Positions 12,234-59,590 of a DNA stretch of 64,000 nt are shown here, in pieces. The notes under the pieces are model-generated. The model had not been told where the DNA came from, did not search any database, and was given only the letters and a program-made list of their open reading frames with translations. The translations under genes and the position numbers were made by a program. Within the stretch, counting starts at the first letter, position 1. Each line of letters begins with the position of its first letter. The DNA comes from an uncultured Erysipelotrichaceae bacterium. Its GTDB lineage: Bacteria; Bacillota_I; Bacilli_A; Erysipelotrichales; Erysipelotrichaceae. The stretch spans positions 1 through 64,000 of the forward strand of contig CANOSP010000005.1 of NCBI GenBank assembly GCA_947569705.1, in the 5' to 3' direction.

Positions 12234-12440
12234 TTATTTTAGTAAAGAAGGGATAATTAAATAATTTCCAACAAACATTAATACAGTAATCAGAATAAAT
12301 AAAGTTAAGGCAAATGTTTTAATTTTATTCTTATAGCTTTCTTGATCGAATTCTTTTCTATCAGATTTCTTTAATATTTTACTGTAAATGAAAGTTAAAA
12401 CAACAGTAGTAATTACAGCAATTAAGAGTATTACTATCAT
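12234..12440 (-). CDS. Small two-helix membrane protein, immunity-protein candidate
   Basis: 68 residues from an ATG that overlaps the upstream stop as ATGA, the hallmark of translational coupling. A 76-residue reading from an earlier ATG is also possible. Two hydrophobic helices (about 2-22 and 46-66) flank a highly charged cytosolic-type loop (KKSDRKEFDQESYKNKIK). Size, topology and tight coupling to a secreted protein gene are typical of bacteriocin immunity proteins. No family is recognised, so the role is inferred from context only. Confidence 0.7.
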   Translation of the reverse strand: MIVILLIAVITTVVLTFIYSKILKKSDRKEFDQESYKNKIKTFALTLFILITVLMFVGNYLIIPSLLK

Positions 12441-13144
12441 ACATTGAATTCTCTTTGTGACCAAACTGAGAACGCTGTTGTAAATTTATTAATATCTGTA
12501 ACTGTTCCACAATTGCCATCACTATTATTAGAGCGTATTGCTGCTGCTAACGTTCCAGCATACCATGAATTCCAACCAGCTCCTAAGCCTATACCTGCTG
12601 CAATTGCAGTTCCAATACCTGGAAGAAATGCTGATATTCCTCCACTAGAACCAGCAACTAATGCCCAATTACGTGATAATTCATCTAGTTTTGTTGCTGA
12701 TTTCTCCGAATTAGTTTTATTATTATAGAATCGGTCATAATTCCATCCAGATGACGTTCCGTTTTTACCACAGTAAGTTCCACGGACACTACAAGTATTT
12801 TCGCCCACTGATTTATATTCTAAATTAGCAGTTTCAATTAAATGAATAGCAGTATCAGCAAAAACATCCTTTGTATAATTTGTATTAAAATACTCATTAA
12901 AAGTATTAAAATCAAAGTCAGAATCGTTCACGACTTTAATTACTTCTGCTTTATCAAAAACGTATTTATTTCCTTTGATATCTAATACCTCATCAATCTC
13001 CTTTTGTAATTCATTAAATTCTTCGATGATTTTTTCTCTTGACGGTTTTGCTCCTTCATTAGCATTGACTGGCGTAAGAGTTGTTGCTAATAATGCAACT
13101 GCAATACAAATACTTAATGATTTTAATAATTTCTTAAATTTCAT
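12437..13144 (-). CDS. Secreted bacteriocin-like protein with Gly/Ala-rich hydrophobic C-terminus
   Basis: 235 residues. A classical signal peptide (basic KFKKLLK, hydrophobic core, cleavage after TPVNA near residue 28) precedes a charged region (about 30-115). The C-terminal part has Cys118, Cys125 and Cys212 and a long Gly/Ala-rich amphipathic-hydrophobic stretch (about 160-204: SSGGISAFLPGIGTAIAAG, then IGLGAGWNSWYAGTLAAAI). This resembles pore-forming bacteriocins or toxins in composition, but I do not recognise a named family. Ribosome site AGGAGGAAAG. It is coupled to an immunity-like gene and lies just past the agr locus, so it is a likely agr output. Alternative: a secreted structural protein. 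Confidence 0.75.
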   Translation of the reverse strand: MKFKKLLKSLSICIAVALLATTLTPVNANEGAKPSREKIIEEFNELQKEIDEVLDIKGNKYVFDKAEVIKVVNDSDFDFNTFNEYFNTNYTKDVFADTAIHLIETANLEYKSVGENTCSVRGTYCGKNGTSSGWNYDRFYNNKTNSEKSATKLDELSRNWALVAGSSGGISAFLPGIGTAIAAGIGLGAGWNSWYAGTLAAAIRSNNSDGNCGTVTDINKFTTAFSVWSQREFNV

Positions 13145-13476: not shown

Positions 13477-13821
13477 TTACCAATAGCTTTGACCCTTAAA
13501 AGGGTATTCATATTCCTTTAAACTTAATTTATCCTGCACAATATCTGCTTTTTCCTGCTCTCGGATATATTTTTGCAATTGCTGCTTCATTCAATCCCAC
13601 TGTACTCATATAATATCCTTCTACCCAAAAAGCTCTGTTGCCAAACTTTACTTTAAATTTGCATGTTTATCAAACATCATCAAGACTGCTTTTCCTTTCA
13701 GATACCCCATAAAGAAGCTTACGCTATATTTAAGAGGAAGCGCCAGTAACAGGTGTACATGGTCTGGCATCATGTGTCCTTTTATCATTTCTTTTCCCTT
13801 GTATTTACATAATGACTTAAT
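13477..13821 (-). pseudogene. IS200/IS605-type TnpA transposase remnant
   Basis: Translation in pieces gives GHMMPDHVHLLLALPLKYSV, then FFMGYLKGKAVLMMFDKHAN, then FGNRAFWVEGYYMSTVGLNE and KLSLKEYEYPFKGQSYW-stop, an unmistakable Y1 transposase of the IS200 family with its HUH motif (DHVHLL). The N-terminal part is missing and there are two frameshifts, one base lost after NLK and one gained after AAIAK, so it is dead. Hairpins at 13370-13415 look like the former subterminal stem-loop. It separates agrD from the bacteriocin-like gene, so it inserted into, or came with, the island. Confidence 0.88.
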
Positions 13822-13828
13822 TATATAT

Positions 13829-13849
13829 AAAAAGCCTCATTAAGAGGCA
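13829..13849 (-). terminator. Terminator after agrD
   Basis: GCCTC TTAAT GAGGC followed by TTTTTATAT on the minus strand, 70 bases past the agrD stop. It would end the agr transcript before the IS remnant. Confidence 0.8.
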
Positions 13850-13916
13850 TTAAATCAAGATACTATTAATATAAAAAGAACTTATCATATTTACATTTGT
13901 GACATTTTCAACCAAA

Positions 13917-14041: not shown

Positions 14042-14077
14042 ATCATATCATAGTTTACTAGTAATGTTACTAACATT
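14042..14077 (-). promoter_or_regulatory. agrD promoter region with perfect palindromic operator
   Basis: AATGTTACTAACATT (14063-14077) is a perfect 7-1-7 palindrome with ATGT/ACAT ends, and an overlapping imperfect one is CTAGTAATGTTACTAA (14058-14073). On the minus strand it covers the spacer/-35 zone in front of TATGAT (14047-14052), with no good -35 hexamer, so a regulator should act here. The PadR-like protein encoded immediately upstream is the first candidate; AgrA is the other. Confidence 0.6.
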
Positions 14078-14199: not shown

Positions 14200-14529
14200 T
14201 TATTTGTTATCTTCAATTATGTTATTTAATGTAGTTAAATAATCTTTTCTTCGTTTTATTTCTCTATACAAAATTTCCAATCCATAATCTGTAATATGAA
14301 TATATTTCTGTTTGCCGATTTTCCTTATTTCATCAACAAACCCATAATTTTTTAAATTTTTAATAATTTGATATATAGTCGAATTAGATAGGATAAATTT
14401 ATTTTTTGTTTGTATCTGTATCTCTTTTATAATTTCTTTCCCTGATAAATCACAAATACTAATAATTGTTAATGCTAATAAACTTTCATCCGTTAATTTC
14501 TGATTTGAATATGTTTTTTGTCTTGGCAC
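14200..14529 (-). CDS. PadR-like winged-helix transcriptional regulator
   Basis: 109 residues: winged-helix DNA-binding protein with PadR features, namely SGKEIIKEIQ, the recognition-helix region NSTIYQIIKNLKNYGFVDE, the wing KIGKQKYIHITDYGLEIL, and a short C-terminal helix for dimerisation. GTG start with AAAGGAG seven bases upstream; it overlaps the end of agrB by 37 bases, so the two are translated from one message. Its placement between agrB and agrD is unlike classical agr loci and suggests it tunes agrD or the output genes. Confidence 0.85.
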   Translation of the reverse strand: MPRQKTYSNQKLTDESLLALTIISICDLSGKEIIKEIQIQTKNKFILSNSTIYQIIKNLKNYGFVDEIRKIGKQKYIHITDYGLEILYREIKRRKDYLTTLNNIIEDNK

Positions 14530-15023
14530 AGTATTTCTCCTTTATCAAAAACCAATACGATTAGTAATGTGCATAAAATTAATGAATTTTTTAATAATAA
14601 GCTAACAAAAAAGTATAATATAAAAAATTTATTTTCTACCACATATACCTTTTTCCCCCTATAATGATATATTAATTTAACAAAAGACAGAAGCATCAAA
14701 ATTATAAGAATTATATATTCAGATACATAATTTTGAACTATAAGTATAAATAAATATGTTGCGTTCGATAATATAAAACATTGGGAAAAAGTTTTTGCAT
14801 GAAAGCCATTTGAGAATGATCTTAAATGACAAAACACAAAACAAAACAAGGCAGTTTCAATAAAATTATCTATCATTATTCCTATTATAAGAATAGAACT
14901 AAAAGTAATTATATGTGTTATAAATACTTCAATTCCAAATCTTACATCGTTTACATCTCTTTCTTCTATTGCCCCTTTTTTAAGCAGAGCTCTTGCACAA
15001 AATTTTGAAATACCTGTTAGCAT
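14493..15023 (-). CDS. agrB: AgrB-like pheromone-processing membrane endopeptidase
   Basis: 176 residues with about six hydrophobic segments. The AgrB catalytic pair is visible as H75 and C82 in SNGFHAKTFSQC, with the same seven-residue spacing as His77/Cys84 of S. aureus AgrB. It would cleave the AgrD tail and close the ring. The N-terminal amphipathic part (SKFCARALLKKGAIEERD) is also family-like. It lies 93 bases after agrC on the same strand and overlaps the PadR-like gene downstream. Confidence 0.93.
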   Translation of the reverse strand: MLTGISKFCARALLKKGAIEERDVNDVRFGIEVFITHIITFSSILIIGIMIDNFIETALFCFVFCHLRSFSNGFHAKTFSQCFILSNATYLFILIVQNYVSEYIILIILMLLSFVKLIYHYRGKKVYVVENKFFILYFFVSLLLKNSLILCTLLIVLVFDKGEILCQDKKHIQIRN

Positions 15024-15116: not shown

Positions 15117-16400
15117 CTAAATAAACAAAAAAATTTCAAGAGTAAAAACATTATTTGTAAAATTATAATTCAAATCACCATTATATTTTTTTGCGACTTG
15201 TATCATATTTTTCATCCCAATATTATGGAAACTTTTATCTTTCTTATTTGTAATTAGTTCATTATTTTTATTCATCTTGATATTCTTTGCTTTATTAACT
15301 ATTTTAAAATATAAAATAGTCTTTTGTTGCTTAATTTCAATAAAAATCTTTCTATCATCTTTTTTGAGTTTTTTAACTGCTTCTATAGCATTATCTAATG
15401 AGTTACCTAATAATATGCTTAAATCAATATCAGATACTTTAATATTACCTATATCTATTGCTATTTCAAATTTGATATCTTGATTTTTTGTAACTTTATT
15501 GTTTAATAAAGCATTCAAAATCAGATTATCTGAATATTGACTTTTCTTTAATGATGAATTACTTGAGAGATTACTTAAATAAAGAATCGCTTCTTCTATT
15601 TTCCCTGCTTCTAATAAAAAACTCAAAGATATAAAATGGTTTTTCATATCATGTTTAATCTTTATAATTTCAGCATTCTGTTCGGCAGACTTTAAATAAT
15701 ATTTTTGTTTAATTTCCTTAAGATATAGCTCATGTTTATATTCTGCATTTTCCATTTTAGTGTTTATATAAGAAACAACAAGTTTAAATAAACAAGTTAT
15801 CATAATTACAATTGAAATCATTAATAATACAATATCAGTTATTAATAATTCATTATCTCTTCTCATAACAACATCATAAAGACTAATTAATAATGATAAA
15901 CATGATATAAAGAAAAATATAAGATAACTTGATTCAAATAAAGATACATTAACCGTCTTGTTCTTTTTCTTACCATATATAATAAGTATTATATACATAA
16001 TTAATCTAGATAACAAAACATATATAATTCTTTGAATAGAACTTGTAAGAAGAAAATACTCTATATTGCTGAATGTCACAAGTGATATAATAGATAAGAA
16101 AAACATTGTGAGTAAGCCATAAATTGTGTAAAAAACAAAGACAAACGGTATTAAAACCTTCCTGTTTTTATCCTCGTAAAGAATATCTATGAAAATATAT
16201 AAAACAAAGAAGTTCAGTAAATAATTTATAGAAGAATCGATTGATGAAATAATCATAATAAACAGACCTGCTAGAAGAAAAATAAAGGTCTTTAAAAGTG
16301 GAGATCTTTTACATTCAAAATTAATGCTGCAAAGTTTATCCAGCAATAAAACATCTATTAAGCAAAAAAGATATTCAAAAAAAACGCTCATTGTCTCCAT
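15117..16400 (-). CDS. agrC: AgrC-like sensor histidine kinase
   Basis: 427 residues: an N-terminal sensor of about six membrane helices (1-210), a coiled linker, then the HPK10-type kinase with phosphoacceptor His about residue 250 (IIKIKHDMKNHF), N-box LGNSLDNAIEA (about 335) and a reduced G-box region NIGMKNMIQVAKKYNG (about 395), as in AgrC. It should bind the exported cyclic peptide and phosphorylate AgrA. Its ATG is one base after the agrA stop, so the genes are coupled. Confidence 0.93.
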   Translation of the reverse strand: METMSVFFEYLFCLIDVLLLDKLCSINFECKRSPLLKTFIFLLAGLFIMIISSIDSSINYLLNFFVLYIFIDILYEDKNRKVLIPFVFVFYTIYGLLTMFFLSIISLVTFSNIEYFLLTSSIQRIIYVLLSRLIMYIILIIYGKKKNKTVNVSLFESSYLIFFFISCLSLLISLYDVVMRRDNELLITDIVLLMISIVIMITCLFKLVVSYINTKMENAEYKHELYLKEIKQKYYLKSAEQNAEIIKIKHDMKNHFISLSFLLEAGKIEEAILYLSNLSSNSSLKKSQYSDNLILNALLNNKVTKNQDIKFEIAIDIGNIKVSDIDLSILLGNSLDNAIEAVKKLKKDDRKIFIEIKQQKTILYFKIVNKAKNIKMNKNNELITNKKDKSFHNIGMKNMIQVAKKYNGDLNYNFTNNVFTLEIFLFI

Positions 16401-16401
16401 A

Positions 16402-17106
16402 CTAATCTTTTACCTTTATCATTAAAAATCTTTTATATTTATCTGCAAATCTTTTAACTTTGCCTTTAGGGATAAAAATGCATTCATCATTTTCTAGTTC
16501 AATAACACCGTTTACAATGTTCCTTATTTTATTCATATTTACGATATATTTACTTCCTACGAAAGAAAAATTATCGTTTAATTCAGTTATTAGCTTTTTC
16601 ATGCTTGTGTAATACACCTGAATTTCTTCGTCTGTTTTCATATAAATACGTCTATTATCAATATAGAAGTAAACTATTTCTTCTGCTTTATAAGTCATAA
16701 ATCCATTTTCTGTTTTTAAATTGAATAAAGATTTTTCTAATAATATTTTCAATATTGATTTAAGAACAATCGGTAATCTATAAGTACATTCATCTTTAGT
16801 TATATAATTAAAAACATTCAAGCCAAAAGAATCCTTCATATAACGCTCATAAGAAGTAATAAAAACTATTATACATTTGGGATATTTATCATAAATCATT
16901 TTTGATAGCTCTATGCCATTCTCTAAACCAATCTCTATGTCCAAAATTGCTAAATCATATGATATATCATGTCTAAAAAAATCTGTTATATTTGAGACTG
17001 AAGTAATCTTATATTCTATCTCTACATTTACCAATTCAGTGTTTATTATTTTTATAATCATCTCGCGAATAACATCTTCATCATCTATTACAGCTATTTG
17101 AAACAT
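16402..17106 (-). CDS. agrA: AgrA-like LytTR response regulator
   Basis: 234 residues from the ATG eight bases after GGAGG; an upstream TTG reading is not supported. The receiver domain (1-120) has acidic residues D8/D9, phosphoacceptor D56 (LAILDIEIG) and the conserved T and K (FITSYERY, YITKDEC). The LytTR DNA-binding domain follows (about 135-232: TYKAEEIVYFYIDNRRIYM, GSKYIVNMNKIRNI). It is first in the agr operon here, the reverse of the staphylococcal order. Confidence 0.93.
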   Translation of the reverse strand: MFQIAVIDDEDVIREMIIKIINTELVNVEIEYKITSVSNITDFFRHDISYDLAILDIEIGLENGIELSKMIYDKYPKCIIVFITSYERYMKDSFGLNVFNYITKDECTYRLPIVLKSILKILLEKSLFNLKTENGFMTYKAEEIVYFYIDNRRIYMKTDEEIQVYYTSMKKLITELNDNFSFVGSKYIVNMNKIRNIVNGVIELENDECIFIPKGKVKRFADKYKRFLMIKVKD

Positions 17107-17142
17107 AAAATCTTCCTCCAAAATACATTCATTCCATTAAAC

Positions 17143-17171: not shown

Positions 17172-17250
17172 TTTGTAATATTTTTCAAAGTTATTTTATT
17201 TCGTTTATATTTTCGCAATTTCTTACGAATTTAGTGATAAAATAAGGAAC

Positions 17251-17999
17251 TGTGACAACTAGGCAAAAAGTCTAGGTCGCAGCCTTTTTCTATTTGTCAG
17301 GCAAAACAATTATGTAAAAGTCGATAAAACCTGCTGAAACAAGGGATTATGAAAAAATGCCAATTATTTGTTATTACCATTTTATAATACTGGCACTGTT
17401 ATGTTTTATAAGTTTTCCACATTATCTCAATTCATTTTTATCATATCTTGATATGCATATGCTTCAAATTTGGTGCCGTCAATATATAAGATATCTTTGC
17501 ATATATAGATACGATTCATAATGCAGAGATTCAATTTTTTCAAAAGTTCCTCGATACTCATGCTTAGTTCTTCATTGATGAATCGCTCAAATGTTTTATA
17601 GCTTGGTCGTCCACTGTTGAGAAGACTCTGAAATCTAACATCATATCTGCATTCTTTCTAGATTACGCAGGGAAATCAGTTTTCCATGTATCGCGAGTGA
17701 AAGAAGCAGAGCAGAAAATAAAGTCTGTCTGTCATATCCGTCACTTCTGGTTCTCTTGAAATTGATAAAATCACTTAATTTAATTCCTCCACAATTTCAA
17801 TAATTGTATAGAAGATATCGTCCTTGGCAATGATATTAAAATTTCCTGGAATTTGTAGTAGCATATAGGACTGAAGCGTTATAATTTCCTTGGTTAATTT
17901 GAGTACTTTTCATACCTAAATTATACCAAAAAATACGCCCCTTCTCTCTATTGAGATTGGACGTATTTTTTATCTTTTGGAGCCTGTTTAGTTGTCACA
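17251..17999 (-). mobile_element. Decayed IS1182-like insertion sequence remnant
   Basis: TGTGACAACTA at 17251-17261 and its exact complement TAGTTGTCACA at 17989-17999 form terminal inverted repeats. Between them, minus-strand fragments such as LSDFINFKRTRSDGYDRQTLF and LLSLAIHGKLISLRNLE read as the N-terminal part of an IS1182/DUF772-type transposase, broken by many stops and frameshifts. At about 750 bp it is half the usual size, so most of the transposase is deleted. It lies directly upstream of the agr promoter. Confidence 0.75.
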
Positions 18000-18092
18000 A
18001 CCCCTTTTTATACTCCACCTGCCAATTTCTGTTTTTGGAGGTATGTTGGGGGTAAATCTCGTTATCCCCTTATACTCCATTGTTCATTATAA

Positions 18093-57244: not shown

Positions 57245-59590
57245 CTATTCTCCGCTTAACAATGCTTTCGGAGTAATTCGCTTAATTCTCAGTGACATCA
57301 TACAAATAATCACAAAAGTGAAAATGATTAAGCCGACACCGAACACGATAATTAATCCGATCGGAATTTCAAACATGCATTTTACGATACCGACATTACT
57401 TAAAAACAAGGATGCCAACGGATTAATCAAATAGGAATTGATCATCAGACCGATCACACAGGAACAAATTACCACCGGCATAAAGCTCAACGCTGTTTGT
57501 AAAACGAGTTGACGTGTTGTAAAGCCCAATGCTTTCATAATTCCGTATTCATACTGTTTTTGATTCAACAAAGTACGAACAAGTAAATACAGCACCAATA
57601 ACACGATCAAACCGCCCAACAATACGATCGCAACTACAATGAAACTCATTAGCACAACATAGACACCGCTTGTGGCGTCAATCACCGCATCGATATTTAC
57701 CGATGCTTTCACATGTTCATGAAAAGTATTTCGCACATCTTCATTAAAAGCATCAATATCACTTCCCGGTTTTAAATTCAAATAATAGTTTGCCTCGGTA
57801 AGCTTCCCCATTCGCTCATAGCCTTGTCTTGTTAAAAAACAATCCTTACCTAAATTATTAGAAATCTGAGAATAACCGCTTACGATATAAGACGCCTCTT
57901 TGCCGTCAGTGCTGAAGGTAATTTCATCACCGATTTTAATCCCCTGATCCTTCGCATATTTAATCGCAACAGCGGTTTCGTTTTCATATCGAGGAAGTCT
58001 GCCTTCTACACAAACCATTTGATTATTCAGATCATTGAAATCATCGGTGATTGTGACTGCCAGTGATACACCGTTCACATGACGCAGTGATCCGGTATGA
58101 AACAAATAACTCTTTTCAATTCGCGGATCCTGTTGAAAATATTCTTGTAATTCAGCTTCCGTTTCCGTATCAACACCGATACTGGAATCCGCTGTCTCTC
58201 CGGCGATCATATCAATCATCGGCTGAATGTCTAAAATAACATTTTTCAACATCACGGCAGTAAACGCCGACACCAGTGTCAACATTACCGTCGTAATACA
58301 TACAATAATATTTTGTTTCGTCTGTCCTGCCGCTGCTTTTAAAGATAAACTCGGTAATAACGGTATGCGTGAATTTGAGAGCGGTACATGATTTTTACGG
58401 AAATTATGATTCGGAATACCTTGACGAAGCGCTCGAATTGCTTCATAGCGTTTTACACGATGTACGGATAAATACACAGCGATCACCACGATTGAGGTAA
58501 TAAAGGCAATCGTTGTTAAAAACGGCATCGGTAAAAAACGCATATGATAAGGAATGCCTGTTTGTGAAATCATCATTTCATTGACAGACGGAAACAGACT
58601 GTAGGTCAATAAGGCACCGATCGCACTGCTTAATACACTGAGCAACATCATTTGAAACATATATGCCAGAATAATCTGACGGCTTTGATAGCCGATTGCC
58701 TTTAGAATCCCAAGCTTTTTCATGTTTTCCTGAATATCCGTGATGACATTCGCAACGATCACAATCATCACAATTAACAATACAATAAATGCCATGGCAC
58801 TTAAGATTGCGGCGGCGATCATCTGTGAAATGTAACGAGAGGAAGAAATCAACTGATAAGAACTGGTGATCACGCGCAAATTCGGATATTGCTCGGATAA
58901 CAATTCATTCAATCGTGTTTCTACAACCTCTCCGGCTTGCTTATCATGTAAACGCACCGATACAAATGTCGATTCCGGCAGCTGCTCATATGCTTTTATT
59001 TCTTGATATAACTCACTGTCTAAAGCCATAAGGACCACTATACAGTTATGGGAACCGTTCATAATGTGATTCGTATACCCGGCAATCGGAAACGTAAGCG
59101 CCTGATCACCGATAATGACTTCAAAATCATTGCCGAGTTTTAAATTTTCATCATTCGCATAAAGCATCGGAATATAGATGCCTTCAACTCCTTGCTTTTT
59201 TTCAATCAATTCACTTGTTCCGATATTGCGTGAAAATGCCGTTTTTTCATCCATAAACATAAGATTCATACCGATGGTACCGCCGTTATATTGAAATGTC
59301 CCGAAAGTAAATAAACCATCGTCCATTCGATATTCACTGATATCGGGATCTTCTTTCAACGTTGTATCCAAGAACGCTCGCATCTTTGTATCATTACTGC
59401 TTATTGCCATCGTCACATGTTCACTGTGCAGTCTTTCATGTTGAGCATCGAAATTATTCTTATAATCGCCGGATAAAATCAGCCATATATTCATCATGCA
59501 GGCAGCTGTGATAATCAAGGTGATAATTACGATTGTCTGTTTTTTGCGTTTGCGGATATTGCTTGCCGCAAGCATTGCATATTTTCTCAT
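57245..59590 (-). CDS. ABC transporter permease (FtsX/MacB type)
   Basis: 781 residues. A first helix, a large extracytoplasmic domain, a first three-helix FtsX block (about 255-375), a second anchor helix and external domain, and a second three-helix block near the C-terminus, as in BceB/YxdM-like long permeases or duplicated MacB-type permeases. The ATG is one base after the ATPase stop. It likely exports or counters antimicrobial peptides or lipids. Confidence 0.92.
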   Translation of the reverse strand: MRKYAMLAASNIRKRKKQTIVIITLIITAACMMNIWLILSGDYKNNFDAQHERLHSEHVTMAISSNDTKMRAFLDTTLKEDPDISEYRMDDGLFTFGTFQYNGGTIGMNLMFMDEKTAFSRNIGTSELIEKKQGVEGIYIPMLYANDENLKLGNDFEVIIGDQALTFPIAGYTNHIMNGSHNCIVVLMALDSELYQEIKAYEQLPESTFVSVRLHDKQAGEVVETRLNELLSEQYPNLRVITSSYQLISSSRYISQMIAAAILSAMAFIVLLIVMIVIVANVITDIQENMKKLGILKAIGYQSRQIILAYMFQMMLLSVLSSAIGALLTYSLFPSVNEMMISQTGIPYHMRFLPMPFLTTIAFITSIVVIAVYLSVHRVKRYEAIRALRQGIPNHNFRKNHVPLSNSRIPLLPSLSLKAAAGQTKQNIIVCITTVMLTLVSAFTAVMLKNVILDIQPMIDMIAGETADSSIGVDTETEAELQEYFQQDPRIEKSYLFHTGSLRHVNGVSLAVTITDDFNDLNNQMVCVEGRLPRYENETAVAIKYAKDQGIKIGDEITFSTDGKEASYIVSGYSQISNNLGKDCFLTRQGYERMGKLTEANYYLNLKPGSDIDAFNEDVRNTFHEHVKASVNIDAVIDATSGVYVVLMSFIVVAIVLLGGLIVLLVLYLLVRTLLNQKQYEYGIMKALGFTTRQLVLQTALSFMPVVICSCVIGLMINSYLINPLASLFLSNVGIVKCMFEIPIGLIIVFGVGLIIFTFVIICMMSLRIKRITPKALLSGE

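Follow-up and report, generated by a model that had tools for sequence, protein, structure and literature searches.

The window, the whole 64-kb stretch of DNA analysed here, carries an agr locus in which a PadR-family gene lies between agrB and agrD, an unusual feature found in this strain and its sister strain only. The splitting of agrD from its usual operon by padR is more notable than the palindrome in front of agrD. The most likely reading, to which we assign a probability of about 0.55, is that agrD has a separate, ordinary promoter with an incidental dyad. An extended -10 promoter of its own would drive agrD directly behind the agrA-agrC-agrB-padR operon, read-through from this operon into agrD may occur in addition, and the 7-1-7 palindrome over the -35 hexamer would most likely be a chance dyad of AT-rich DNA and not a dedicated operator of PadR or AgrA. 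From the analyses described below, we infer both the activity of the agrD promoter and the absence of a bound regulator.

Gene order of the agr locus

The locus is encoded on the minus strand in the order agrA-agrC-agrB-padR, followed by a gap of 184 bp and agrD. As expected of an agr locus, agrB, agrC, and a LytTR-type agrA were all present: agrA (16402..17121) encodes a response regulator with a LytTR DNA-binding domain (PF00072 and PF04397), agrC (15117..16400) a sensor histidine kinase of the GHKL type (PF14501, E = 1.7e-19), and agrB (14493..15023) the peptide-processing membrane protease (PF04647, E = 3.9e-20). The precursor, too, has a ring residue of the Cys/Ser/Thr kind and a Pro-containing tail and is encoded near agrB. 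However, the direct adjacency of agrB and agrD in one operon, which belongs to the same description, was not found, padR and the 184 bp intervening.

The agrD gene (14015-13917, minus strand; MLNFFGQFMLKIASLTDTYSLWDFYTPKRYED) encodes a 32-aa precursor of a cyclic peptide, probably a lactone, with the motif S-x-W-x-F-Y-x-P, and AAGGAGG provides a good Shine-Dalgarno sequence. AgrD gave no match in Pfam; alignment with AgrD-like ORFs adjoining agrB in relatives indicated that Ser, Tyr, and Pro of this core are invariant. The quorum-sensing locus agrBDCA of Staphylococcus and Enterococcus Fsr share with this locus the AgrB protease, the AgrC GHKL kinase, the AgrA LytTR regulator, and a short AgrD precursor, and the lactone pheromone of Fsr (PMC5454873) has Ser at the ring position, as does AgrD here. 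In contrast to both systems, the order here is A-C-B-padR-gap-D, with agrD detached from agrB and a PadR-family gene between them.

The padR gene (14529-14200, minus strand), which begins with GTG, overlaps the 3' end of agrB by 37 bp and is followed by agrD, as the earlier note on this DNA had stated. Its product matched the winged-helix domain PF03551 with 29 bits (E = 1.1e-6), narrowly above the Pfam gathering score of 27, and its closest relatives of solved structure were PadR proteins, albeit with weak E-values. A single-sequence structure prediction of the protein (pLDDT 47.5) was too poor for use. None of 24 loci of PadR relatives, drawn from about 800 genomes, had an agr gene within 1.5 kb, and among 20 larger agr loci of relatives padR occurred in the sister strain only. 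Searches of phage and plasmid collections with PadR and of viral contigs with AgrB gave no match. To judge from their titles, abstracts, and numbers of term hits, the papers retrieved on PadR and agr apparently report no such locus.

Between agrD and the gene of a bacteriocin-like protein, 13504-13870 is left over from an IS200-type element (Y1_Tnp, E = 5e-9); the sister strain lacks 13504-13745 and has 13746-13870 inverted. The bacteriocin-like gene (12437-13144) encodes a secreted glycine-rich protein of 235 aa that matched the EntV bacteriocin family below threshold only (E = 0.07), and the 76-aa membrane protein encoded after it (12234-12464) could be an immunity protein. Upstream of agrA, 17250-18000 contains transposase-like ORF remains with matching ends (GTGACAACTAGGC and TTTAGTTGTCAC), one fragment of which had no match in Pfam; with these remains on one side, the agr locus lies between likely mobile-element relics.

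The putative agrD promoter and its palindrome

By consensus match, a putative extended -10 promoter was recognized in front of agrD at 14042..14070 on the minus strand: GTAACA (14070-14065) as the -35, a 17-bp spacer, and TATGAT (14047-14042) as the -10 preceded by TGn (TGATATGAT). Promoter-like sites in the AT-rich agrD region were as common as in shuffled sequences (42 versus 42.5), so that this promoter is a candidate and not a proven one. In the gap between padR and agrD, no intrinsic terminator was detected, and read-through from agrACB-padR is therefore possible on top of transcription from the agrD promoter. On the other side, a hairpin with a T-run (13834..13848, minus strand) is the likely terminator 3' of agrD; it lies in the region of the IS200 relic and, because 13746-13870 is inverted, faces the opposite way in the sister strain.

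These data also bear on the possibility that agrD lacks its own promoter and is read entirely from the agrACB-padR transcript, the palindrome being neutral spacer. The common strand of padR and agrD, the lack of an intrinsic terminator between them, and the shuffle-level number of promoter-like sites are consistent with this explanation; however, the extended -10 is correctly placed before a good ribosome-binding site, and agrD forms a separate, terminator-closed unit in a related genus, so that we consider it unlikely.

The palindrome described in the earlier note was indeed exact: AATGTTACTAACATT at 14063-14077 (no strand) is a perfect 7-1-7 palindrome, which covers the putative -35 hexamer and 2 bp of the spacer, and its overlap with the promoter zone, also claimed there, was likewise confirmed. 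The sequence was nevertheless unremarkable in frequency. In the window, 16 palindromes with arms of at least 7 and a spacer of 0-1 were found, against 8-18 in ten shuffles; shuffling of the agrD-padR gap produced such a palindrome with P = 0.065, and with P = 0.21 when spacers up to 8 were allowed. Pattern searches of the genome revealed a single exact copy of AATGTTACTAACATT, namely this one, and 26 sites with up to two mismatches versus 32 for a reversed control pattern, that is, no excess of near copies. Thus, the search for further copies proposed in the earlier note found no exact one elsewhere, including before the bacteriocin-like gene, and the regions in front of agrA, of the bacteriocin-like gene, and of the Ig-like gene contained neither a similar block nor a copy of the palindrome.

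Two further dyads, neither assigned to a strand, overlap the palindrome: TAGTAA-N2-TTACTA at 14059..14072 and the perfect dyad TTACTAGTAA at 14055..14064 in the spacer between -35 and -10. The presence of three overlapping dyads inside 23 bp had P = 0.0065 in shuffles, and 3 of 347 tiles of the window reached the same score, which is a looser measure picked after the sequence had been seen. This cluster may speak against an incidental origin, since the three dyads cover exactly the place at which a repressor would bind, the -35 and the spacer (with the P value of 0.0065 being post hoc); so does the neighbouring regulator gene, which has no other obvious target. A 10-bp periodicity of TAGT/ACTA half-sites at the promoter was rejected (P = 0.052; 28 of 347 tiles equally extreme). 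A structured RNA leader was not indicated, as the folding energy of the gap was average (z = 0.18), and an Rfam search of the window returned tRNAs only.

The sister strain, bacterium c-19 (L014/L099), was the sole other genome found with the locus and is 98.7% identical across it. It retains padR, has an identical agrD, and shows no change in the -10 or in either overlapping dyad. At 14074, however, a base difference turns ACAT into ATAT in one arm; the strict ATGT/ACAT site is not kept. This is one of four differences in the 184 bp of the gap, and at about 2% divergence the comparison is no proof that the palindrome is neutral; for the same reason, the conservation of the two dyads says little. 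Apart from the sister strain, the 21-bp block TTAGTAACATTACTAGTAAAC, which overlaps the palindrome, had no match with up to two mismatches in 266 genomes of the family. Taken together, the chance-level frequency and the broken arm make the palindrome weak evidence for an operator.

The genes differed in the extent of protein change between the two strains. Amino-acid versus silent codon changes were 6 versus 2 in agrB, 4 versus 2 in padR, and 6 versus 3 in the bacteriocin-like gene, whereas they were 1 versus 4 in agrA and 3 versus 6 in agrC; that is, the first three showed more protein change than agrA and agrC, and agrD was identical. The padR changes include N49T, at the beginning of the likely recognition helix.

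Searches for PadR and AgrA operators

The most interesting alternative, which we regard as a tentative possibility, is that the PadR-like protein represses agrD through the dyad cluster on the -35, so that the supply of precursor would be gated apart from AgrB, AgrC, and AgrA. The position of padR directly before agrD, its translational embedding in the agr operon, and the coverage of the putative -35 and spacer by dyads are in line with this idea. The protein resembles the PadR repressors LmrR, LadR, and cdPadR1 in its small PadR domain, a winged helix of about 109 aa. The PadR box is an ATGT-N8-ACAT inverted repeat (PMC4517056), and the operator of cdPadR1 of C. difficile is TACT-N11/12-AGTA with relaxed spacing (PMC5050560). 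Neither form was present at the agrD promoter, and the sole ATGT-N8-ACAT of the window lies at 58227. TACT/AGTA half-sites of the cdPadR1 type (PMC5050560) do occur at 14056-14071, but those at 14056, 14060, and 14068 are adjacent or everted.

The earlier note had likened the ATGT/ACAT ends of the palindrome to PadR boxes with a shorter spacing. The spacing was counted correctly, ATGT-N5-ACAT at 14064 being the sole occurrence in the window, but the likeness did not hold: the spacing is 5 against the 8 of the PadR box, the N11/12 form of cdPadR1 differs as well, and ACAT is ATAT in the sister strain. Nor was a second site found before agrA or before the bacteriocin-like gene. Furthermore, the own promoters of 23 PadR relatives contained dyads clearly stronger than those of shuffles: their scores summed to 170.5, while the best of 60 shuffles reached 141. 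Dyads in the own promoters of the family's PadR proteins would suit such control; on the same scale, however, the agrD dyad was weaker and within the shuffle range (P = 0.41). TACTA/TAGTA was not enriched before the PadR relatives. PadR may still control agrD through the overlapping core of TTACTAGTAA and TAGTAA-N2-TTACTA, which is the same in the sister strain.

LytTR proteins use two 9-bp direct repeats, 11-13 bp apart, that lie upstream of the -35 (PMC6193735). Activation of agrD by AgrA from repeats overlapping the palindrome region would create a positive feedback like that of known agr loci, and AgrA does have an intact LytTR domain. Activated promoters usually have a poor -35, and so does agrD; individual half-sites, AATGTTAGT among them, agree with the broad LytTR consensus that was used for the scan. 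However, the best repeat pair at agrD did not exceed the level of shuffles (P = 0.8; with so broad a consensus, a site that has diverged may escape notice). The same was true before agrA (P = 0.23), and no site shared with agrD was found there. Activation by AgrA thus seems improbable to us.

Detached agrD genes in the family

A separate agrD unit was better supported than the palindrome as an operator. In four genomes (L082-L085) of another, related genus of the family, agrD is a single gene before agrA with its own terminator; a strong hairpin with a T-run closes it with z values of -4.1 to -5.2 in the three that were folded, and the fourth contains the same terminator sequence. In three further genomes of this related genus (L086-L088), agrD lies 69-100 bp 3' of agrB. 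These two arrangements indicate that a detached agrD recurs in the family, whereas in the same-genus genome G005, agrB and agrD overlap like in the usual agr loci. The L082-L088 loci share with the present one the order agrA-agrC-agrB, the AgrD core S-[LI]-W-x-F-Y-x-P, and an agrD detached or far from agrB; they differ in having neither padR nor such a palindrome. Before the single-gene agrD unit, at L083:3130-3331 and in L082, L084, and L085, a conserved dyad was observed amid strongly conserved blocks; its sequence is CTTGAC-N6-GTCAAG in L085, from which L082-L084 deviate little, and it could be a regulator site.

The comparison suggests that separate control of agrD probably can occur. The proposal in the earlier note that agrD is controlled apart from agrACB is accordingly upheld in part: a likely promoter of its own and the detached genes of relatives favour it, and possible read-through across a gap with no detected terminator tells against complete separation. 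In the Staphylococcus agr model, agrD is not controlled separately from the rest of the locus, and the stated departure from classical agr loci stands with respect to that model; it is not unique, since detached agrD genes occur elsewhere in the family.

As an extension of the PadR alternative, it is conceivable, though we doubt it, that a PadR-family protein captured in the agr operon represses the detached agrD via the promoter dyads, with an intracellular ligand or stress gating the signal. If so, the gating of signal production would not depend on the sensor or on the processing enzyme. The position of padR between agrB and agrD makes the locus suited to a direct test of separate control, which the palindrome alone does not establish. 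If the precursor were controlled apart from the processing and sensing machinery, the cell could mute its own signal yet keep listening.
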